NCBI GenBank assembly: GCA_001887945.1 | Contig: LDOQ01000258.1 | Location: forward strand, 1-35,297 | Reading direction: 5' to 3' | DNA length: 35,297 nt | Source: Spraguea lophii | Lineage: Eukaryota > Microsporidia > Spragueidae | Shown here: piece after piece, positions 3,169 through 34,830 of the stretch | Position numbering within the stretch: the stretch's first letter is position 1 | How the letters are laid out: every line of letters begins with the position of its first letter | Program-made: the position numbers and the translations under genes | Notes under the pieces: generated by a model | Seen by the model: only the letters and a program-made list of their open reading frames with translations | What the model was told of the DNA's origin: nothing | Databases searched by the model: none

Positions 3169-3765
3169 ATGATAGAAAATGAAGAAGAACAAATAAAACT
3201 TATACAAGAAATAGATAATACATTCACTGAAATAAATAAAGCATTATCAGAAACAAACACCAAATTAACAACCATTTTAAAAGAAAACAAAAAAATATCC
3301 GAAGATCTTAAACCATATAAAAATTTTTTCTCAATAAAACAAAACACGAATGAATCCATTCTTATAGATTTCAACGACCATACAATTTTAAACAGCACGA
3401 TAGCAGATAATAGAATAGAAGATAAATCCAATATTTTAAACGACAGTGATAGCACATACAAAAAAATACACACGCCATCCTTCACACATTCCAACAGCAG
3501 CATAAATATAGAATCTTTTAAAAATGAATATTCTATTGCAGAAGAATCACTTTTATCTTTTGATATAAATATATTACCAGATATTTTTAAAAAAGAAAAA
3601 GATCTGGAAATTTTATATAATTTTATAAAAAATAATAAAAAAGTAACAAAAGAAGAAATCATAGAAAGATTCAGTGATGTGGAAAATGAAAAAATTAAAA
3701 TATTTATAGATGTTTTAATAAGAAAGAATTTTATAAGAAAGAAAAATGAGTATTATGAAATATAG
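3169..3765 (+). CDS. Coiled-coil plus winged-helix-like protein, possible Dad1/DASH relative
   Basis: A 198-residue protein. The start is the ATG at 3169 because CCC lies one base upstream (AACCCT-ATG); the longer frame from a TTG at 3142 is unlikely. Residues 1-50 are a charged helix of the form EEQxxLIQEI...LSETNxKL...LKPYKNFF. This resembles the short Dad1 subunit of the DASH/Dam1 kinetochore ring (family pattern: RxxLIxEI, LNRxLE, then an aromatic end). Residues 51-135 are polar and probably disordered. The last 57 residues (LEILYNFIKNNKKVTKEEI..., ending RKNFIRKKNEYYEI) look like a winged helix: three helices followed by a basic beta hairpin. Dad1 normally lacks this part. Ska1 also combines an N-terminal coiled coil with a C-terminal winged helix and is an alternative. 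The coding region is certain enough; the family call is inference. A 176-residue antisense frame overlaps it and is a shadow. Confidence 0.6.
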   Translation: MIENEEEQIKLIQEIDNTFTEINKALSETNTKLTTILKENKKISEDLKPYKNFFSIKQNTNESILIDFNDHTILNSTIADNRIEDKSNILNDSDSTYKKIHTPSFTHSNSSINIESFKNEYSIAEESLLSFDINILPDIFKKEKDLEILYNFIKNNKKVTKEEIIERFSDVENEKIKIFIDVLIRKNFIRKKNEYYEI

Positions 3766-14693: not shown

Positions 14694-15187
14694 GTTGCCG
14701 GTTGGTTTTGTGGTCGTGGAATGGCAACCAAAATTTAAGCCTGGCAGGTTCGAATCCTCCTTGATTCATAAGAATTTTCAAAAAAACGAAGAAAATAATA
14801 AAGGAGAAAAGTGAAAAGGTTGTTGAGCAAGTTAGAGTTCGGTAATGGAGCATTGGCGATGCTTGGACGACGGTCCTACTATTAAATTAAAGTAGCGTTT
14901 AATTGGTGTATTTGTAATCCCTGTATTGGTTTGTGACTCGGCCAATATTATACTAAGAGAGAGATTGGGGATTCCTAAAAAGCTTGAGGAGGCGGTAACA
15001 TGTATCATACATAAAACCGCAACGTTTGGAGCATAAGGTAAGATGAGATTAATGTATATATGTAGCGAAACCAGTTAGTACAAGTTTAAAAAGCGCTTAC
15101 AAATTCATGGTCATAGACCGTGATAAGCCGCAATTGGCCAAGAATTTCTATAAATAGAAGTTTCATTAATAAAAAAAACGAAAAAAA
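14694..15187 (+). mobile_element. tRNA-derived SINE, copy 1 (diverged)
   Basis: This copy aligns along its whole length with copies 2 and 3. It has a tRNA-like head with a perfect B box GGTTCGAATCC at 14747-14757 and a degenerate A box at about 14703-14713. A purine-rich linker follows (about 14775-14825), then a GC-richer body including TAAGGTAAGATGAGATTAAT and GTAGCGAAACCAGTTAGTAC. The tail reads GAAGTTTCATTAAT followed by A-runs (15171-15187). It differs from the other two copies at many positions and I see no clear target-site duplication, so it is the oldest of the three. No protein is encoded. Confidence 0.8.
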
Positions 15188-19992: not shown

Positions 19993-20700
19993 AAGAGGGT
20001 AGAAGCAATAAAAAATATAATAACAATTAAAACAATAATAGATAATAGTGTTTTTATATGAAAATTAATAGGGTTTTTTAGTTTGCTTAGGAAATGATGA
20101 GATAGAATAAATATTTTTTAAAATGATATAAGTTTTAAATTTAGAAAATTGGTAAAAGTTGATAGAAAAAATTAATACTTCTTTTTTATAAAGGGTAATA
20201 TAATAATTAAATATTTTTTTATATTTTTATATGAAAGTAATAATAGAATTAATATGTTAACGATGTTACATCCTCTCTTTATAAGTTTTAACTCTTAATA
20301 TTTATTTATTTATTATTATATTTTATAGACAGGTATATTATTTAGAAATAGATATATTTTTTTCCTGGTTTCGGGAAAGTCAAATAAATTTTAACATAAT
20401 ATCATAATATTAGACGAATAGAAGGTTTATTCGTTTTTAATAAAAATGAGTTTTGGGGGAAATTTTAATTATTTATTTTTTAAAAAAGTTTATCAATATT
20501 TTTCCTTTTTAAATATTCATTTTAGTAAATAATATTTAAACTTAATGTGATATAGAATTTGAGTTATTCATAGAATTAAGCTCTGGTATATTTTATAATA
20601 TATAAAAAAGACATATTAATCTTATCTTATTTGTTATTTGTTTATAATTACCTTTTTTTTGAGAAACTAATATGAAATTAAAAATTTTTCAAAAAACAAT
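19993..20700. other. AT-rich region, start of the gene-free half
   Basis: About 700 bases, no open frames of note and no recognisable repeat. The first ~100 bases are the 5' flank of the kinesin gene. Confidence 0.45.
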
Positions 20701-20709
20701 TTAATTATA

Positions 20710-20800
20710 CTCAAATGGCTTAGTGAATGTGGCCCACGATGTTTTGAGATCGTTGATTTTTTAATGGACAGACAAACTCCACAGTAACTGGGGTTGTCTT
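20710..20800 (+). ncRNA. Candidate structured RNA (hairpin, U-run, hairpin)
   Basis: A GC-richer island in very AT-rich sequence. It has a 5-bp hairpin (ACGAT 20736-20740 with ATCGT 20749-20753), then ATTTTTTAATGG (20756-20767), then a stronger hairpin (GACAAACTCC 20771-20780 with GGGGTTGTC 20790-20798, one bulge). Stem-loop, U-rich single strand, stem-loop is the layout around the Sm site of spliceosomal snRNAs. No U1, U2, U4, U5 or U6 signature sequence was found beside it, so the class is unknown. It could equally be a fragment of a mobile element. Confidence 0.2.
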
Positions 20801-21059
20801 ATATACGCATTAGTTTTATTTTAATTAGGCTTTTACTTCCGGCGAAACCATCATTCTATAAGTATTATTAAGATTATAACTTCATTTTTGGTATAACATT
20901 GATCGAGTCAAGACAATACAATGATTGTAATTATATTAATCAAACAATATTTTAATCTATAATAAGATTATTGTATAATCTATTATTGATTCACACTACG
21001 AATTCTCACTCACCTAATATACCTTCTTTTCCCGCTTTTTATATTTCCGTTTTAAAAAA

Positions 21060-21540
21060 TTATAGGTGAAGTATCCAAATAAACCAAATTTAAAATCAGA
21101 TTATCGCGCCACAACCGTTCAAATATCCGAGTTTTATAATTGGTTTGTTCAAGAATGGTAACATTCCGATACGATTTTTGCGAAATATAAACAAAGATTC
21201 CTTGTTAATAGACCTTTGTCTAACGTATTTTTTATATAAATAAATTGCGAATTAAAAATGTTATAAACTACGCTTCCATAAAAATAAACTCGAATTATTA
21301 TTTCGAAATGAAGATTATAAATTTCTATAAAAAGAAATTTTTTTAGCATAAAAGAAATGAATTGAATAAATTCGAATGGGGTTTTCTAATGGAACATCTG
21401 AAGAAAAGAATCGTTGAACCACATGCTTTATTTAATAACATCATTTATGAAACTCAATTGAATTATTTTGAATTAATCATATTTTGTTTTAAAATAAAAA
21501 CATTAAAATCGTTCTAAAAGATTCTTAAGATATAATTATA
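21060..21540 (+). pseudogene. Coding-like relic, possibly the N-terminal part of an ISXO2-like transposase
   Basis: Two open stretches with non-random composition: VKYPNKPNLKSDYRATTVQI..FYNWFVQEW near 21,065-21,155, and LNKFEWGFLMEHLKKRIVEP..LFNNIIYETQLNYFELIIF near 21,360-21,480. The second resembles the ISXO2-like segment in which RI.(V)...FF....L.L.E...F precedes the catalytic part. No catalytic block could be found after it. The overlapping minus-strand frame at 21,149-21,349 is low-complexity and rejected. Confidence 0.25.
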
Positions 21541-22420: not shown

Positions 22421-22764
22421 GTTTTGTAGATGCGTTTTTACATGGCTGGTTATTATTTCTTTCTCTTCTTCTGGAAATATAAATATTTTCTTATCACAAA
22501 TCATTTTTTTTCTTATTCTGTTTCCATTTTTGTAAATCTTTAAAATATTATAAATTATTCCTTATTCAATACCGATAATATTTGATAAAAGAAACTATTT
22601 CTTTTTTATTTCTCATTATTTTTCGCGTTCGTTCTTCACTGCTGGTTTTTTAGTATTTGCATTATTTGTGTTTGTTCCATTTATAAAAATTTTCATGACA
22701 ATATAATTTATATTTTTTTAAATGCTTTATTTGCAGCGGAAAAATTAATCATTTATAATATATA

Positions 22765-23252
22765 TTTTTTTACGAATGAAACTTTTATTTATCAAAGTTT
22801 CCTGGCCGGTTGCGGCCTACCATGGTCTGTGACCTTCGGTTCCTCGAGCGAAATTAAACTTGTACTAACTGGTTTCGCTACAGATATGCATTAATCTCAT
22901 CTTACCTTATGCTCCAGAGTGTTAGGATTTTGCATCTGGTGCACGTCGCCGCCCCCACTTCCAGCTCTTAAGGAATTCCCAGCCTCTTTCGTTGCATAGT
23001 ATTGGCCGAGTCACAAATCAATACAGGGATTGCAACTACATCAGCTGAACACTACTTTAATCTAGTAGCGGGGCCGTCATACAAGGCACAGCTATGCTGC
23101 ACTATCGAAACCTCACCCACTCAACAACCTTTTTCTTCTCTTCTGCGTTTATTATTTTTTTTTGTTTTGAAAATTTTTTTCTGGATGAGGGATTCGAACC
23201 CGCCAGGCTTGGGGTTTGGTTACCACCCCACGACCACTGGGCCAGGCGGGAC
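22765..23252 (-). mobile_element. tRNA-derived SINE, copy 2
   Basis: Reads 5' to 3' on the minus strand from 23252 (GTCCCGCC...) to the A-tail (seven T on the plus strand, 22765-22771). The A box TGGCCCAGTGG lies at 23234-23244 and the B box GGTTCGAATCC at 23190-23200, spaced as in a tRNA gene. A 13-bp target-site duplication TTTATAATATATA (plus strand) flanks it at 22752-22764 and 23254-23266. It is very similar to copy 3 along the whole body. A 100-residue frame inside it on the plus strand is antisense to the element and not a gene. Confidence 0.9.
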
Positions 23253-23829
23253 TTTTATAATATATAAAATAATTTTTTTTTTAATTATAAACTTATTAGA
23301 TTGAGATAATAATAATTTGTAAAATGTTCTTTTAAATACAGTCGACACCTTTATTGAAGAAATAAAAGTTACAACATAACCAGGATTGTTTAATATATTT
23401 TAAAACCTGATTGGGTCGTTTAATTATCCGGTGTCATTAGGAATTCTTACTGGAAATAAGACATGTAAAGCTATAAAGAACGTATGAATTTAAAAACTTC
23501 TGACAGCATATTTATGTTTAGATGTGGATGTAATAGAAACATTATATCAAATAGAAAATATACTTTTTCTCGGATATTAAGTTATCGGTCAGAAAAATAC
23601 ATCATACTTTATATAAAATATCAAAAAAAAATTAAAATATAAAAGAATAAGAGAACAAATAAATAATGGTAAAAATGTTTAATTTATATTTTTAAAAAAT
23701 AAATGAAAATATCAGTTAATCTGTGCAAATAAATACCTTATAATAAACAATCCAAATTTTTACAACAAACAAAATATCAATAAAAGCATATGAACTATCT
23801 AAAAAACCATATGGACTTTTTTGTTGGCT
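23253..23829. other. AT-rich region between SINE copy 2 and a transposase relic
   Basis: No gene recognised. The stretch near 23,340-23,620 is somewhat less AT-rich and may be a further decayed element, but no motif could be read. Confidence 0.4.
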
Positions 23830-26130: not shown

Positions 26131-26528
26131 GTTATTAGTTTAATACTTCTATATATCTTACTAAAAAAATCAAAATCTTTTTCTTTCTCGTAAAGAAAAT
26201 CTAATATATTTTTACTTATCATTTCTTATTCTCGTTTAAAAAAAGATTAAATACTTATTTTTTGATCAAAATGTATAAAAAACATATTTTAAAAAAATTA
26301 TTTTTATTAATAAAAAATTAATATCTTTGTTTTCTATCTTATAAATTTTTATGTTTAAATTGTTTTTATTCTTTATAATTATAATCAAATATATAATTTA
26401 TTGATAAGATAAATAATTTAAATAGATTAACATACTGTTGGCTAAAACTAAAGCGCAATAGTAAAAATCAAATATTAAATAAAAATAATTACATAGATAT
26501 ATTTATTATAAAAAATAAGAATGCTTAT

Positions 26529-26788
26529 TGTCTTGTTCCGTAAGAGGAACAAGCCCAGTTATGTGTCTGTGGTAGATAGATAAGATGCTGGATCCTTTGA
26601 AAGATAAAGATTTTTGAGGCTGGCTCTTAAAGTTTTCATTAAAACTTTTGTTCTTAAACTTCATGGTTTATTTAAATATTTTGTTCTTAAACTCAAAAAG
26701 GAGTTTCCAAGAACCAATAAGAATATTTTTTATCCTTTCCTTCAATCTTCAACCTCTTTTTTTGTCATTACATCTTCTGTACATGACA
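26529..26788 (-). repeat. LTR (3' LTR of the minus-strand element), 260 bp
   Basis: Begins TGTCTTGTTCC and ends TACATGACA on the plus strand. Nearly identical to the LTR at 29731-29988. An 8-bp perfect hairpin CTTGTTCC (26532-26539) / GGAACAAG (26546-26553) lies at its end. Confidence 0.93.
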
Positions 26789-26802
26789 TTCTACCCTTCT
26801 TC
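26789..26802 (-). promoter_or_regulatory. Polypurine tract of the LTR retrotransposon
   Basis: On the minus strand GAAGAAGGGTAGAA directly precedes the 3' LTR (TGTCATG). This is the expected place and composition for the plus-strand DNA primer. No primer-binding site matching a tRNA 3' end was found after the 5' LTR. Confidence 0.7.
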
Positions 26803-26813
26803 GAAATAATCTT

Positions 26814-28954
26814 TTATAAAGGTTTTATGTTCTTTATATTGACCCTAAAAATGCCATTAGGTCTCTTAATATCCACAACATTCTTATTCTCTAATACTCT
26901 TACTATTGGGTAGGGTCCGAGATATTTTGGTTGAAGTTTACCTATAATATCAGAAGATATAACTTCTAAAGGTTTATTTGCTTTTATAGTTCCTTCTATT
27001 TTTCCGTGTTTTAACTTGTCTACAATATTTTTCCTGCACCAAACACAAGATGAGATTTTTTGAATAACTTGTTTATATGAAACCTTGAAATCCATGATTT
27101 TTAACGTCTTATATGTTATGTATATACCAGGGTGTCCTAATGTTTCGTGAGTTTTTATTATTATATCTTGATTGTTATGTACTAACATGGTTTTATGTTG
27201 TTGATTTTCTGTTATTCTTGATAATTTATCTGCAATAATATTTTCTTCACCTTTTATGAACTCAATAGTAATATTGTATTCATTTAACGTTTCTTTCCAA
27301 CGATTAATTCTAGAATCCTCTGATCTTGCTCTGAAGAGATTATTCTTGCTATCTGTTCTTAATATAATATTTGCATTTAATAAGATACTTCTAAATTTTA
27401 TTACCGTTTTAAAAATGGCAAAAGCTTTTTTTTCGACAACAGTGTAGTTTGTTTCACTATTATTTAATTTGTAGCTGTATATGCCAATGATTCCAGTTTT
27501 TTGATAAATAATTCCTCCAATGCCTCTGTTACTAGCGTCAGTTTCAATAAAGAAAGGTTTGGAAAAGTCTGGATAAGTCAATCCTTTTGTGTATGATATT
27601 TCTTTCCAAAATTCCTTAAGTTTTATTTCTTCAGTTTTATTCCATGTGATTTTATAGTTTGTCTTCAACTTATCAGTTAAAAATAGTATTTTTGTGCTTA
27701 GATCTGGAACAAAATTTCTAAATCAATTTATAAGACCTATAAGTCTTTGTAGCTGCCGTTTTGTTCTAGGCATTGTTTCTTTATTATATAAATCCACCTT
27801 TTCCGTGTTCGGATAATATCCATTTGGAGTAATATAGTGGCCTAGGTATTCTATTTTTTGTTTGCAAAATGTACTTTTCTCCAAATTAATAGTCATCCCA
27901 TGGTCGTATAATCTGTTTATAACTGTCATTACTTCTTTATGGTGTTCTGTAATATCTTTGCTATGTATTAGTATATCATCAAGGTATATTTTTACATATT
28001 CTAGGCCTCCAAGTATAGATTGCATTACCCTCTGAAAAGTTCTTGGGGCATTTGTTAAGCCGAAGGGCATTCTTAGATATTCATATTGTTGGTTTAAAAT
28101 TAAAAAACTTGTGTGTTGAATAGATGACTCATCCATCAAGATTTGATGGTATCCCATATTAAGATCTATACATGAAAATATTTTAGCCTGTGATAATTCA
28201 ATCAAACATTCTTGTAAATTCGGACAAGGAAATACTTCTTTAATTGTGTGATTGTTGAGTTCAGTATAATCTACGACTAATCTTAGCTTTTTATTCTTTT
28301 TTGATATAAAAAAGGCTGGTGATACAAACGGTGAATTAGATGGACGTATTATATTCTTTCTTTTGAGTTCACTGATATATTCTTTTGCTTCATTTCTAAT
28401 TGTGAACGGGACAGTATATTGTTTATTAACGGTTTTTGGTTGGCCTTTTAGGTGTATCTTATGTTTTTCTTTGTTGAATGTTCCTAGTATTTTTCCTTTA
28501 GCGATTTCAGAAACTTCTTTCTTTAGCGTATTAGCTTTGAGTTGACACATTACTCTATCTGCATTTTCTTCATTTTGATAATTAGATATAAAATTCATGG
28601 CAAATCCCGATAGTTCCAATGTATTGTTAGCGAGACATATTTTTGCATCATTATTCACTAAGAAATTATTTCCTATTAATAAATCAACAGGTATTTCTTC
28701 TGATACAATCATTTCAATGTTAAACGATGCATTTGGTATTTCATCAAAAGTTATTGTAGTTTTTGCTGAACAATCTGTTTTTATATCTGTGTTGGCGGCT
28801 GTCTTTAGTGAAATAGTTGGAATAGTATCTGTGGTTAGACCAGCTCTTTTAGTGAAATTTTTGTTTGCAATCGTGTATGTTGTCCTGTATCGATAAGGCA
28901 TCGTACTGAGTTATTAGAAATGTTTGCGTTGACGTAAAGAAGATGTCCTTTTGA
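26814..28954 (-). pseudogene. Broken pol: protease, RT, RNase H, integrase ends
   Basis: Protease: LIDTG is read in the gag frame near 28,890-28,904, and the chain then continues in another frame (TTYTIANKNF...DLLIGNNFL), so a frameshift lies near 28,885-28,895. RT: LRLVVDYTELN, CIDLNMGYHQI, MPFGLTNAPRTFQ and catalytic YLDDILIHS (about residue 306 of the open stretch 28,901-27,723). A TGA at 27,725-27,723 stands where the family has Trp (LIN-W-FR..P.LS), and the same frame continues from there. RNase H: FFIETDASNRGIGG, EKKAFAIF, RTDSKNN, ADKLSRI. Integrase: zinc-finger HETLGHPG..CVWC, then LEVISSDIIGK runs directly into LQPKYLGPYPIVRV, the GPY/F module. Everything between the first catalytic Asp and this module is deleted. 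The protein cannot integrate DNA by itself. Confidence 0.9.
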
Positions 28955-29728
28955 TTAGTTATTTTTAATAAAAAAATTCTTTCTTGTATTTTCTGATTCT
29001 TGTCTTTTTAGTGCTATACAACTTTTTGTATCGTGAGTATTGGTTTTGTGGTAAGAACAACATTTATCATTTTTTGTTTTGTTTGGAGGATCAATAAAAT
29101 TATTACGTTTTATGTTTATTGTTCTTTTTCTATCAACCCGGCTATTAGCAGTTACAACTTCTTCTATATCTTTTATATAATAAATAATTTCTTGTACTGT
29201 ATACTTCTCTGCTTCTCTCATTTTAATTTTCGTTTCGGATGTTAAGTTCTCTAAAAATTTTGTTTCTAATAACACATTCTCTTCTGTTTCTGACCATCCA
29301 TTACACTTAGCCAATTTATATGTTATTTTCTTCAGTTCATCATGATAATCCTGTATTTTAGCAATTTTTATTTCCTTTATATCTTTTAGATTGGATTGTA
29401 GTGACTGTGCTAATTTAGAGTTGTAGGTTTGGCTCATTATCTTTTCTAATACCTTTTGTGGGTCTTTTATACTATTTATGAGCTGTTTATAGTTGTTTGA
29501 TAATAAATGTTTTATTACAGCAAATGATCCTACTTTGGAAAAATTGTTGTTGTCACATAGCTCTTTAACTTGATCAATCCATACTTCTACATTTTGCTCT
29601 TCTAAATTTTCTAGTACTTCTATTTCTATCATAGTCTTTATTTCCGTATCTGCAAGCTTCATTTCAAAACTTTTTGTGTCTCTTTTCTGTTTCTGTTTGT
29701 TAATAGGCACATTGACGTTTGAATTCAA
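28955..29728 (-). CDS. Gag of the LTR retrotransposon
   Basis: A 257-residue open frame starting just inside the 5' LTR with TTG; the first ATG is at residue 23 (29,662), so the true start is uncertain. The middle is helical and fits a Ty3-type capsid (VEVWIDQVKELCDNNNFS.., LETKFLENLTSETKIKM). A zinc knuckle C-S-Y-H-K-T-N-T-H-D-T-K-S-C (about 226-239) has the C-x2-H-x4-H-x4-C pattern seen in many fungal and plant gypsy Gags. It should form the virus-like particle and bind RNA. It stops with TAA at 28,957-28,955; protease lies in the same frame right after, so this was probably one gag-pol frame, or is read through at the stop. Confidence 0.85.
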   Translation of the reverse strand: MNSNVNVPINKQKQKRDTKSFEMKLADTEIKTMIEIEVLENLEEQNVEVWIDQVKELCDNNNFSKVGSFAVIKHLLSNNYKQLINSIKDPQKVLEKIMSQTYNSKLAQSLQSNLKDIKEIKIAKIQDYHDELKKITYKLAKCNGWSETEENVLLETKFLENLTSETKIKMREAEKYTVQEIIYYIKDIEEVVTANSRVDRKRTINIKRNNFIDPPNKTKNDKCCSYHKTNTHDTKSCIALKRQESENTRKNFFIKNN

Positions 29729-29730
29729 AA

Positions 29731-29988
29731 TGTCTTGTTCCGTAAGAGGAACAAGCCCAGTTATGTGTCTGTGGTAGATAGATAAGATGCTGGATCCTTT
29801 GAAAGATAAAGATTTTTGAGGCTGGCTCTTAAAGTTTTCATTAAAACTTTTGTTTTTAAACTTCGTGGTTTATTTAAATATTTTGTTCTTAAACTCAAAA
29901 AGGAGTTTCCAAGAACCAATACGAATATTTTCTCCTTTCCTTCAATCTTCAACCTCCTTTTTTGTCATTACATCTTCTGTACATGACA
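29731..29988 (-). repeat. LTR (5' LTR of the minus-strand element), 258 bp
   Basis: Partner of the LTR at 26529-26788, with the same TGTC/GACA ends and hairpin. It is followed at 29989-29993 by the second copy of the CTTAT target duplication. Confidence 0.92.
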
Positions 29989-30443
29989 CTTATAAAATGT
30001 AAACTTCTTTTTTTAAAAAATATTTTTAATCATTGCTGTTATTATTGTTAACGTTATTAGGAATATTATTACCCGTCCTTCTAATTGTTGTTCTATTTAT
30101 GCTAGCTATTTCATTAAAACATTTCATTCGATATTCTCAAATAATTAGTATTTCTTCCTCGTTCAACAATATTTGGGAATTATGGCCAGACCTATTATAA
30201 ATATTACTGCATTATTAAATCCAGCGGTGTTTAGAAATAATCTGTTTGGCGTTTCATTCACAGTTCTATGTTTTTATATTGTATTGATATGTTTTTCATC
30301 AATAATATTCACTCATTTTCTTGTATTTCTGTATAACATTACAGATATTACACTTCTTTTGATTGTAAAATTAAATCTTTCAATTTGACCCTGTGATTCT
30401 GGATGAAGTGGGCGACCAAACATATGTCTTATATTATATTTAT
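29989..30443 (-). pseudogene. Stand-alone gypsy-type integrase relic, C-terminal part (Ginger/KRBA2-like)
   Basis: On the minus strand a frame from about 30,425 gives HMFGRPLHPESQGQIERFNF, then TIKRSVISVML and, after a stop, VNETPNRLFLNTAGFNNA. This is the integrase block with the third catalytic residue (Glu of QGQIER), followed by the TVNETPxxLF segment seen in Ginger and KRBA2-type integrases. Similarity fades below about 30,150. The N-terminal part of the same gene lies beyond SINE copy 3. Confidence 0.7.
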
Positions 30444-30940
30444 GTCCCGCCTGGCCCAGTGGTCGTGGGGTGGTAACCAAACTCCAAGCCTGGCGGGTTC
30501 GAATCCCTCATCCAGAAAAAATTTTCAAAACAAAAAAAAAAGAATAATAATAAATGCAGAAGAGAAGAAAAAGGTTGTTGAGTGGGTGAGGTTTCGATAG
30601 CGCAGCATAGCTGTGCCTTGTATGACGGCCCCGCTACTAGATTAAAGTAGTGTTTAGCTGATGTAGTTGCAATCCCTGTATTGATTAGTGACTCGGCCAA
30701 TACTATGCAACGAAAGAGGCTGGGAATTCCTTAAGAGCTGGAAGTGGGGGCGGCGACGCGCACCATACGCAAAATCCTAACACTCTGGAGCATAAGGTAA
30801 GATGAGATTAATGCATATCTGTAGCGAAACCAGTTAGTACAAGCTTAAATTCGCTCGAGGAACCGAAGGTCACAGACCATGGTAGGCCGCAACCGGCCAG
30901 GAAGCTTTGATAAATAAAAGTTTCATTCGTAAAAAAAAAA
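30444..30940 (+). mobile_element. tRNA-derived SINE, copy 3 (best preserved)
   Basis: A 497-bp insert starting GTCCCGCCTGGCCCAGTGG. The A box TGGCCCAGTGG is at 30452-30462 and the B box GGTTCGAATCC at 30496-30506. An A-rich linker (30,515-30,575) precedes a GC-richer body of about 330 bases. The end is TAAATAAAAGTTTCATTCGT followed by ten A (30931-30940). A perfect 12-bp target-site duplication TATTATATTTAT flanks it (30432-30443 and 30941-30952). It interrupts an integrase relic of opposite orientation whose reading frame resumes exactly past the insertion. No protein coding; an antisense 86-residue frame is spurious. Transcription would be by Pol III from the internal boxes, and mobilisation by a LINE that is not in this window. 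Confidence 0.93.
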
Positions 30941-31610
30941 TATTATATTTATTATATAAAGAATTTATTGACTTATTGTTAAATTCTCCAGGAAATAATA
31001 CACCCTAAAAAAGATTTTCAAATGGATATATATTTCGTCTACTGTTATTAATACACGGGGAAAATCATGCAAATTTTGTTGCACAATCAATCATAGTTGA
31101 AATATATTTAAAATTATTATTATCAGATTGATAATCTAACATATATGTTATATCTAATTGAATTCTATCAAGTTTTTTATATAATAATGATAGGCTGTAT
31201 GGATATTTGATCAATATATGTACCATGTGTACCAGAAATAAAACAATTATCCAATACCGCTTTTATATTGGTTATTTTTATATTATAAAATTTATTTTTT
31301 ATTTCAATAAAAGTTGAATTTATGCCTTTATGTCGACTTTCATAATTTTCAATGCATTCTTCTTTTAATCCAACAATATATTCTGAAATATATTCCAGAG
31401 AATGATTATTTGTTTTTATAAAAATTTTATAATTTAATAATAACATTTTATCTGCTTTTATTTTAAATTTCTTGTTTTGGTTTTTAGTTAGATTAATCGG
31501 ATATAGCCCAGTTCTTAAATATATAACGAAATCATTATATCCCTCTTCTATTTTTGTTTTTATTAAATTGCCACGATGAATTTTTTAAAAAGAAAAGTTT
31601 GCATTTTATA
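30941..31610 (-). pseudogene. Stand-alone gypsy-type integrase relic, N-terminal part
   Basis: From about 31,570 the minus strand reads EEGYNDFVIYLRTGLYPINL, then KKFKIKADKMLL, the segment before the zinc finger in Ginger/KRBA2-type integrases (YL..G.YP.......K..FK.KA). The zinc-finger-like block is ENYESRHKGINSTFIEIKNK, then AVLDNCFIS, with one His and the last Cys lost. The first catalytic block is LDRIQLDITYMLDY (about 31,130-31,170), then YISTMIDCATKFA. After a stop and a shift, GEFNNKSINSLYNKYNI (about 30,945-31,000) represents DNGxEFxN; its Asp is gone. No reverse transcriptase is adjacent, which favours a DNA transposon of Ginger type or a domesticated-like stand-alone integrase over an LTR element. 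Confidence 0.7.
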
Positions 31611-32895: not shown

Positions 32896-34830
32896 AAATT
32901 TCAAAGTTTATATACATAATTTTGAGCGGGATTAGGTATTTTTATAGTGATATGTGTGTCGCACCCGTTCTTATGCATTTACCTATTCAAAAGACCTTTT
33001 ATTACAGCAATAAACGTTTTTCTTTGTGTAACCATTAGGGTGGAAATATAATATTTAAAATCCTGTATACGAAAAAGACTCTAAATATACGTAATTTATT
33101 AAAATAAATACATTTTATTCAAAAAATAAATTTTTTTCTGAATTCACCTCTAATCATGTGTTTATAAATTTTCTTTAATTTATTCTAATAATACGGTTTC
33201 CATAATTCAGAATTGTTATATCTTACTGGTATTTAAATATTAACCAAAGATTGTAAAAGACTCTAGTTTTTATTATTAATTCAATGGAATAATTTATATC
33301 CATATTAGCTGATATAAGAATGTTTTTTATAAAGAATAATTTGGAGACAATAATCAAAAAAATCTTTTACAAAAAACAACTTTAATATATTTTTTTACAC
33401 GATAGAACACCAATAATAATAATACATTATACCTATATATACTTTAACCCAATATAAAATTATTTTTTTTAATCATGGTATAGTTCGAAATCTATTCACG
33501 ATTTAATGACATCATACTTTTGAAAACATCTAGAAGGATAGATATAAATTTAAACAGTCATTAAAATACATGGTATATTTAAATTATATTTCCTGCATTA
33601 AAGATCGCTACAATCATTCACATATAAACGATATGTTAATTGTTCATATATAATTAAAGATAATAATTATAAATATATATACTTTCTAACTCAGTATTAT
33701 TCTTAATTATACCTTTTAATTATAGAGAAAACATTCTGCTTATACTTTAAATTATATTATAACATATAATCTAATTATTATTATTTCAATATTAATGAAT
33801 TTGAATCTCTTTATTAACATAATAATGTTTAAATCATCATAGAATAAATATACATGTTTATACTAGTTAATTATTATTGGTATTAAAAATGTGTTATCTT
33901 TTAAAGAATATTTTATGCTATACTTTCAAATGATTAATTATTCAACAATATTCTTCTTTACATATATTATTTTTTATTTTGAATTTATCTGGATAAGAAA
34001 TTCAAATATGCTATCTTTAGGATTTAATTACCACCATACAACTATTGTATTTTAATATTATTTATTATTAATAATTTTAAGTAATTTATATCTTTATCTT
34101 CCCACCTTTTGATTTTATTTAAAATAAATTATTTTTTAAAGGTTTTATCGAAGGAAAATATATGAGAGGAATAATTATTTAAGCGTTGATGTTATTAAGA
34201 TGTAGGTGGAAACAAGTTTTATAAATTTAAAGAAGTTGAATATAAAAAAATAATTATATTGGAAAACAAATGATTTTAATAATTTAGTTACAATAATAAA
34301 TGAAATGAATTATAGGAAATTAGCAAAAAAAATGTTATATTTATATCTATAATGTTATATAATCGTATTATTTATCTCTATCAATCTATATTTTATTGTT
34401 ATAATTGTTTTTTAAGATTACAATAGTTATTGATATAGAATAAGAAATGAAAAAAATTATAAAAAATATGCTCAAATAATGATAAATATGGATTTAAATG
34501 ATAAAATAAACACGTTAATTTTTTAAAATATATATATTTATTTATTGACATTCTTATTGGATAATAGAATTGATAATTTATGAATAGATTTTAATTTATA
34601 GTTAAATAAATATTATATACGCTATAAATTTTTTATTTAATGATAATATTGATTCAGTTTATATTTAATTTGACAATTAACTTCAAAAGCCTTTCAAAGC
34701 AATATACAATCTTATTACATTTGTTACTGCCATATCTTCTAATTTTAGAAAATTTTCTTTATTCATAATTTTTCTAAGATAGATAGAATTTATTTGATTA
34801 GATTTACAACTTCTAATAGTTTATTATTGC
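32896..34830. other. Gene-free AT-rich region, about 1.9 kb
   Basis: Long AT-rich stretch with stops in all frames. A less AT-rich stretch near 32,940-33,060 may be the outer part of the transposon just described. No genes, RNAs or clear repeats seen. Confidence 0.45.

Follow-up and report, generated by a model that had tools for sequence, protein, structure and literature searches.

The 35,297-nt stretch of DNA analyzed here, referred to as the window, is one entire contig of Spraguea lophii, and it contains a 497-bp unit that raises the question of what kind of repeat this is and by what means it spreads. The first-pass annotation had read the unit as one of three insertions of a tRNA-derived SINE in a microsporidian-type genome. 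S. lophii is indeed a microsporidian, a group that is a textbook case of genome reduction, and all three insertions were found with their common architecture at the positions listed in Table 1. A SINE profile search of the window added two relics, and the control on reversed sequence gave 0 hits. The genome searched comprised 5,273,041 bases in 73 contigs, which look like a subset of the published "Celtic Deep" S. lophii assembly, described as 295 contigs and 5.77 Mb (PMC4948709). The microsporidian SSU rRNA family had no match in the 73-contig assembly. Its SEC61 alpha is 100% identical, across the entire query, to that of S. lophii 42_110; a search with an APC-subunit protein gave no placement of the organism. 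Elsewhere in the window, a 591-aa frame at 1038-2813 has by eye the look of a Sel1-type repeat protein.

Table 1. SINE copies, relics and element parts in the window
Feature	Position	Strand	Remarks
SINE copy 1	30444-30940	+	full length, young subfamily
Copy 1, left target duplication ATATTATATTTAT	30431-30443	+	13 bp
Copy 1, right target duplication	30940-30952	+	13 bp; A-tail shares its first A
Copy 1, tRNA-derived head	30444-30515	+	16 nt around the T arm as in tRNA-Leu(CAA)
Copy 1, A box TGGCCCAGTGG	30452-30462	+	direct reading
Copy 1, B box GGTTCGAATCC	30496-30506	+	33 nt from the A box
Copy 1, A-rich linker	30516-30565	+	T4 run at 30522-30525, sole run of at least 4 T in the consensus
Copy 1, body	30566-30853	+	no Rfam family at gathering score
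Copy 1, tail core (SINE 411-459)	30854-30902	+	homologous to LINE 3' UTR; possible hairpins GGTC-ACA-GACC and GGCCG-CAAC-CGGCC
Copy 1, terminal ~30 nt and A-tail (SINE 467-497)	30910-30940	+	similar to LINE terminus
SINE copy 2	22765-23252	-	full length, young subfamily
Copy 2, 5' target duplication	23254-23266	-	13 bp; 1 base separates duplication and element
Copy 2, 3' target duplication	22752-22764	-	13 bp
SINE copy 3	14694-15187	+	older subfamily, ~75% identity to copies 1 and 2
Old SINE relic	20700-21117	-	profile search, profile 13-456, E 7e-44
Old SINE relic limited to the head and linker portion	33915-34044	-	profile 13-149, E 7e-8

Examination of the unit bore out its described layout: a tRNA-like head whose A and B boxes are spaced as in a tRNA, an A-rich linker, a body of about 330 bases and a TTTCATTCGT-A(n) end. 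The family consensus is 493 nt long with a GC content of 46%, and the ORF list held no ATG-started frame of at least 120 aa over the unit. The head was called as a tRNA neither by ARAGORN nor by Rfam at the gathering threshold; it is therefore taken to be derived from a tRNA rather than to be a tRNA gene, and the reading of the unit as a tRNA gene was rejected. At a relaxed threshold, Rfam returned four weak matches around the element, all far below the gathering scores. Compared with 100 shuffles, a more favorable fold is computed for the SINE RNA (z -2.8). The length of 490-500 bp, which had been remarked upon as great for a tRNA-SINE, is long yet not exceptional, as elements of up to 493 bp are described in Aspergillus (PMC5063351).

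The size of the family was then estimated from the assembly. With the 497-bp copy as query, at least 45 matches were obtained, 40 of which were near full length at 97-100% identity (the best 40 of 452 first-look candidates being scored), and 37 of these 40 start at base 1 of the unit. A 27-mer of the body, allowing up to three mismatches, matched 207 places in the genome and none in the reversed control, a count that misses copies lacking that stretch. The family thus numbers some two hundred copies or more. By simple arithmetic, 207 copies of nearly full length would amount to ~100 kb, close to 2% of the assembly.

Target duplications had been noted at two of the three insertions in the window, and both were found to measure 13 bp. 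The third insertion showed no clear duplication by eye, and its flanks were unremarkable in a later test (p 0.28). A genome-wide absence of duplications had been named as grounds for abandoning the SINE reading; instead, among 35 distinct copies that are full length and 85% or more identical, 29 had duplications scoring at least 9, versus 21 of 679 mispaired flanks, with partial and more diverged hits excluded. Two of the 29 positives (L004 and L008) depend on 25-nt alignments with 5 mismatches, and six of the 35 copies had no scored duplication. Lengths were variable, mostly 12-18 bp, and 14 bp was the commonest (14 of the 29 positives). Duplications of ~14 bp and an A-tail fit insertion by target-primed reverse transcription, which would be the route by which the element enters the genome. 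In two young copies without a scored duplication, L014 and L016, the purine-rich sequences 5' of the head resemble each other to some degree.

The 34 young copies differ by a mean of 1.9% in pairwise comparison and by 1.2% from their consensus, and we conclude that the family was recently active. Nine alignment columns hold a minor allele in at least six young copies, so that subfamilies are likely among them. Older relics persist in the genome at 65-77% identity, indicating long residence. These figures bear upon the proposal that the SINE was recently acquired from the anglerfish host, or that the contigs are host contamination. Horizontal exchange of transposable elements between microsporidia and metazoans has been reported (PMC4202319), and the 46% GC of the SINE sets it apart from the AT-rich window, both in keeping with a host origin. 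Against this stand the presence of the old subfamilies and the spread of the listed 27-mer matches across 43 of the 73 contigs, and we consider a host source very unlikely.

A SINE of this kind would require a partner LINE, as the first-pass annotation had pointed out. A Pfam search for reverse transcriptases (RT) in the genome identified nine places. The one in the window is LTR-type by its frames; another (L034) is a LINE in decay, close to which a SINE has inserted; and at C72:6-146 the start of a LINE RT lies at a contig end. The frame at this last place, 479 aa in length, combines an EEP endonuclease (PF14529, E 0.0019) and RVT_1 (E 0.0018), both with scores under the curated cut-offs and with the RT ended by the contig edge. 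When this frame was searched with phmmer, LINE-1 ORF2 chains in the PDB were matched at E ~1e-9, and its 20 database relatives include one from the fungus Smittium culicis that is named as LINE-1-like. The 73-contig assembly yielded no LINE that is both intact and full length. LINEs are located at the ends of several contigs (C72, C21, C63 at both ends, C11, C61 and C27), suggesting that full copies have probably been collapsed in the assembly.

Two reverse transcriptase-like loci were observed in passing. By eye, window positions 26519-29988 hold a Ty3/gypsy-type LTR retrotransposon whose RT- and integrase-like frames lie on the minus strand, and its LTR repeats (26519-26788 and 29721-29988) align in stretches of 211 nt (97% identity) and 64 nt (95%). 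L035/L038 (C2:66528-67271, minus strand) is an open frame of 1239 aa, rich in asparagine, in which the RT motifs are split; it could be a telomerase reverse transcriptase.

The comparison of the SINE end with LINE 3' ends linked the two elements. With one LINE 3' end as query, at least 41 matches were obtained (best 40 of 108 candidates scored), which by query position were 16 LINE ends and 25 SINE tails. The last 87 nt of the SINE are LINE-like and match 10 of the 16 LINE 3' ends. Within this tail, SINE 411-459 aligned with 9 of 15 LINE ends (77-93% identity, alignments of 40-62 nt) and additionally with L078 (86%, E 8e-11); five of the six LINE ends lacking this match are shorter fragments or decayed. 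The terminus of the SINE gave weak matches to L078, L113 and L116 (81-84%, E 0.001-0.012). The LINE carries ~100 nt extra between the tail-core and terminus matches, and the SINE tail is thus read as an internally shortened LINE end. At L078 (~3547-3570, C21), a short telomere-like GGTTAGGTTAGGTTAGG stretch was seen by eye between LINE pieces and a transposase-like stretch.

The shared tail may form two hairpins, for which support is modest to weak. In the alignment, 80.4% of cells are paired, a value reached by 26 of 500 shuffles, and five pairs are changed on both sides, which 36 of 500 shuffles reached; RNAalifold retains the second hairpin only. Among nine 5'-truncated LINE copies, target duplications scoring at least 10 were found in five, versus 3 of 72 mispaired flanks, and the other four scored below 10. 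With an EEP- and RT-start-bearing LINE in the genome whose 3' end is common to the SINE, the resident LINE very probably moves the SINE, its endonuclease and reverse transcriptase protein presumably recognizing the shared 3' end.

The LINE-derived tail of ~87 nt could also be explained if the repeat were itself a 5'-truncated or internally deleted LINE rather than a Pol III-derived SINE. Upstream of that tail, however, the match between SINE and LINE was limited to the A-rich linker at E 0.003 or above (with LINE sequence lacking the middle of the RT), and 37 of the 40 near-full-length SINEs have a common 5' end at the tRNA head, whereas the nine truncated LINEs begin at varied points. That the unit might be just the terminal part of some longer coding element, another outcome foreseen as fatal to the original claim, is thus not borne out; with a common 5' start at the head and LINE similarity confined, in the LINE sequence compared, to tail and linker, the truncation reading was rejected as extremely unlikely. 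The same tail bears on whether the repeat is a MITE of a DNA transposon, as published for Nosema (PMC4405373). The unit is short, non-coding and dispersed, as a MITE would be, but it possesses Pol III boxes, an A-tail and a tail derived from a LINE, and its duplications vary in length, most of them measuring 12-18 bp. The tail homology practically excludes a MITE, and this reading too was rejected.

The origin of the head was sought among the tRNA genes, at least 57 of which were identified in the genome (the best 63 of 485 candidates being scored). None of 300 dinucleotide shuffles attained the best local score of the head against these tRNAs, in support of the tRNA-like head first described. 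A stretch of 16 nt, GGGTTCGAATCCCTCA, is identical in the head and in tRNA-Leu(CAA), and by gapped identity the Leu isoacceptors rank first (55-56 of 65). By local score, Arg(TCG) is at the top with 18, and the best Leu scores 16, equal to the highest shuffle score. A Leu-type parent is likely from these comparisons, though not settled.

Pol III would be expected to transcribe the SINE from the internal A and B boxes, with a predicted start at the G of GTCCCGCC and a transcript of ~490 nt. In the consensus, the longest T run is of 4 and occurs once. Following the 57 tRNA genes, the first run of at least four T is of 4 in six cases and of 5 or more in 51. Since these runs are mostly of 5 or more, the internal T4 need not stop Pol III; the run is compatible with read-through, and it could act as a partial stop.

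The above considerations make it highly probable that the unit is a three-part tRNA-SINE of S. lophii consisting of a tRNA head, a body and a LINE tail, and from its sequence we infer that it would be transcribed by Pol III and recognized at its 3' end by the LINE protein.

Inspection of the tRNA genes revealed a second pattern. Old SINEs lie behind 8 of 67 Pol III genes: 7 of 57 tRNA genes (Lys, L041; Asn, L046; Ala, L054; Leu, L069; Ile, L091 and L097; Tyr, L105), 1 of 9 5S genes (L130) and 0 of 1 U6 gene. The single U6 gene has one SINE ~120 bp upstream and none directly behind it. In all eight loci, gene and SINE have the same orientation, the SINE similarity begins 8-22 bp past the annotated gene end, and the junction is at the T run of the gene. 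Around the 57 tRNA genes, no SINE of opposite orientation was found out to 60 bp; for 27 of them, the sequence covered extended 100 bp to each side. Local density predicts 0.31 SINEs within 40 bp behind tRNA genes; p values for this enrichment are after the fact, the pattern having been noticed before the test and the 40-bp zone picked afterwards. All seven SINE-linked tRNA genes are among the 26 belonging to multi-copy families (p 0.0025), and five have a paralogue of identical sequence. The SINEs at L041, L046, L054 and L069 retain 68-89% identity to a young copy; those at L091, L097 and L130 are 5'-truncated, with L097 and L130 having the same breakpoint (SINE ~271). Segmental duplication of the SINE-linked tRNA copies was considered and is unsupported, as the paralogues have no common upstream flank sequence.

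Two observations were made on related genes. A second tRNA-Tyr copy (L125, C52:13001-14300) with an altered 5' acceptor side (41 bits), possibly a pseudogene, has a full-length SINE behind it. The nine 5S rRNA genes (L127-L135) are dispersed; two on C18 have a common 40-bp upstream flank, and the others are unrelated by eye.

The arrangement might have arisen by chimeric insertion, in which reverse transcription would have linked tRNA and 5S precursors, their U-tails included, with SINE RNA, the product being inserted as a single unit. The tRNA copies would subsequently have remained intact while the attached SINE decayed. Alternatively, SINEs may insert preferentially at Pol III terminators, or insertions beside redundant genes may be tolerated. 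The chimera model places a target duplication upstream of the gene, and the terminator-insertion model places it between gene and SINE; candidate duplications were ranked versus those at other Pol III genes. Over the eight loci, the chimera test gave a combined p of 0.004, and the seven tRNA loci alone gave p 0.023; the sites are AT-rich and old. The signal comes from L046, L069, L097 and L130 (p 0.015-0.03), and L041, L054, L091 and L105 gave no support (p 0.42-0.92). When seven old full-length SINEs without tRNA linkage were subjected to the duplication test, the combined p was 0.019, indicating low power on old copies.

Insertion behind existing genes has points of its own. Duplications between gene and SINE are suggested at L054 (p 0.04), L091 (p 0.05) and L130 (p 0.10), multi-copy tRNA genes would be expected to tolerate neighbors better, which could also account for the excess of multi-copy families among the linked genes, and retroelements that target tRNA genes exist in other organisms. 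Nonetheless, the combined p for terminator insertion over the eight loci was 0.08, so that upstream duplications score better; L1-type nick priming at the T run would favor the opposite orientation over that seen in 8 of 8; and two of the truncated SINEs have one common 5' breakpoint. On balance, the chimeric joining of Pol III RNA and SINE at the eight loci is unproven but mildly favored over insertion at the terminator, which we regard as possible but doubtful; that neither took place is unlikely. The fuller proposal, in which the LINE machinery copied tRNA and 5S genes with the SINE as units and several became working second tRNA copies, is advanced tentatively, at slightly under even chances.

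The novelty of the family was assessed in the literature. Among the papers listed by searches on microsporidia and Spraguea, no title or abstract opening described a microsporidian SINE, with supplements and most subscription papers outside this scope, and the term "SINE" occurs 0 times in the main texts of PMC4202319, PMC12449221, PMC12558613, PMC11592040, PMC13174016, PMC10133504, PMC3749934, PMC3486916 and PMC4948709. The expectation that microsporidia have no well-described SINE family thus agrees with the main texts searched, without their supplements, although an unnamed SINE entry may exist in the repeat libraries of other groups. The S. lophii SINE belongs to a well-known kind of element, of which these searches found none described in its phylum. 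For the species itself, one LINE family is tabulated (PMC4202319, Table 1) and non-LTR proteins are compared between isolates in PMC4948709; the main texts of both papers name no SINE, and the reported LINE families probably include the partner LINE. The account of repeats in PMC4948709 places them at ~4% of the S. lophii assemblies and gives transposons no major role. A 24-mer of the SINE body was absent from viral and prokaryotic collections, in which microsporidia are not covered and records near the window may be lacking.

The family indicates that a parasitic pair of Pol III-SINE and LINE can persist and expand in a eukaryotic genome of ~6 Mb. Its insertions could serve as markers in Spraguea populations, and the element offers an approach to the promoters and terminators of Pol III in microsporidia. 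More surprising than the SINE family itself would be the duplication of tRNA and 5S genes along with it; if the chimeras are true, this is a route by which a reduced genome may gain extra copies of essential small-RNA genes.

Among known systems, the EhSINEs of Entamoeba histolytica, another AT-rich parasite, are SINEs of roughly 500 bp having sequence in common with a LINE. They belong to a different lineage and to our knowledge have no tRNA head.

The AfuSINE2 tRNA-SINEs of Aspergillus fumigatus are described as having a head with A and B boxes, lengths of 140-493 bp and duplications of 4-14 bp, and one A. fumigatus SINE family has a 3' end similar to the resident LINE I-1_AF (PMC5063351). 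The likeness to the S. lophii element lies in a fungal setting, a tRNA-derived head, target duplications and a LINE-similar 3' end; by their description, the AfuSINE2 heads come from other tRNAs, and the S. lophii family is distinguished by its 207 body matches in 5.3 Mb. In Magnaporthe grisea, Mg-SINE, the LINE MGL and WEIRD are reported to form chimeras by template switching at specific sites, with 14-bp repeats flanking one chimera (PMC2104539). This fungal SINE and LINE pair likewise presents another RNA joined to the SINE or LINE, but the partner described there is the non-coding RNA WEIRD, whereas in S. lophii, where the chimera is unproven, it would be genes for tRNA and 5S RNA, several of which have an identical paralogue. 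Mammalian U6/LINE-1 and tRNA/LINE-1 chimeras, with U6 full length and in sense (PMC13174262), similarly place a small RNA on the 5' side of a LINE-mobilized element. The tRNA parts of the mammalian chimeras, as described there, are typically halves in antisense, whereas the candidate chimeras of S. lophii hold whole genes in sense, with trailer and T run.
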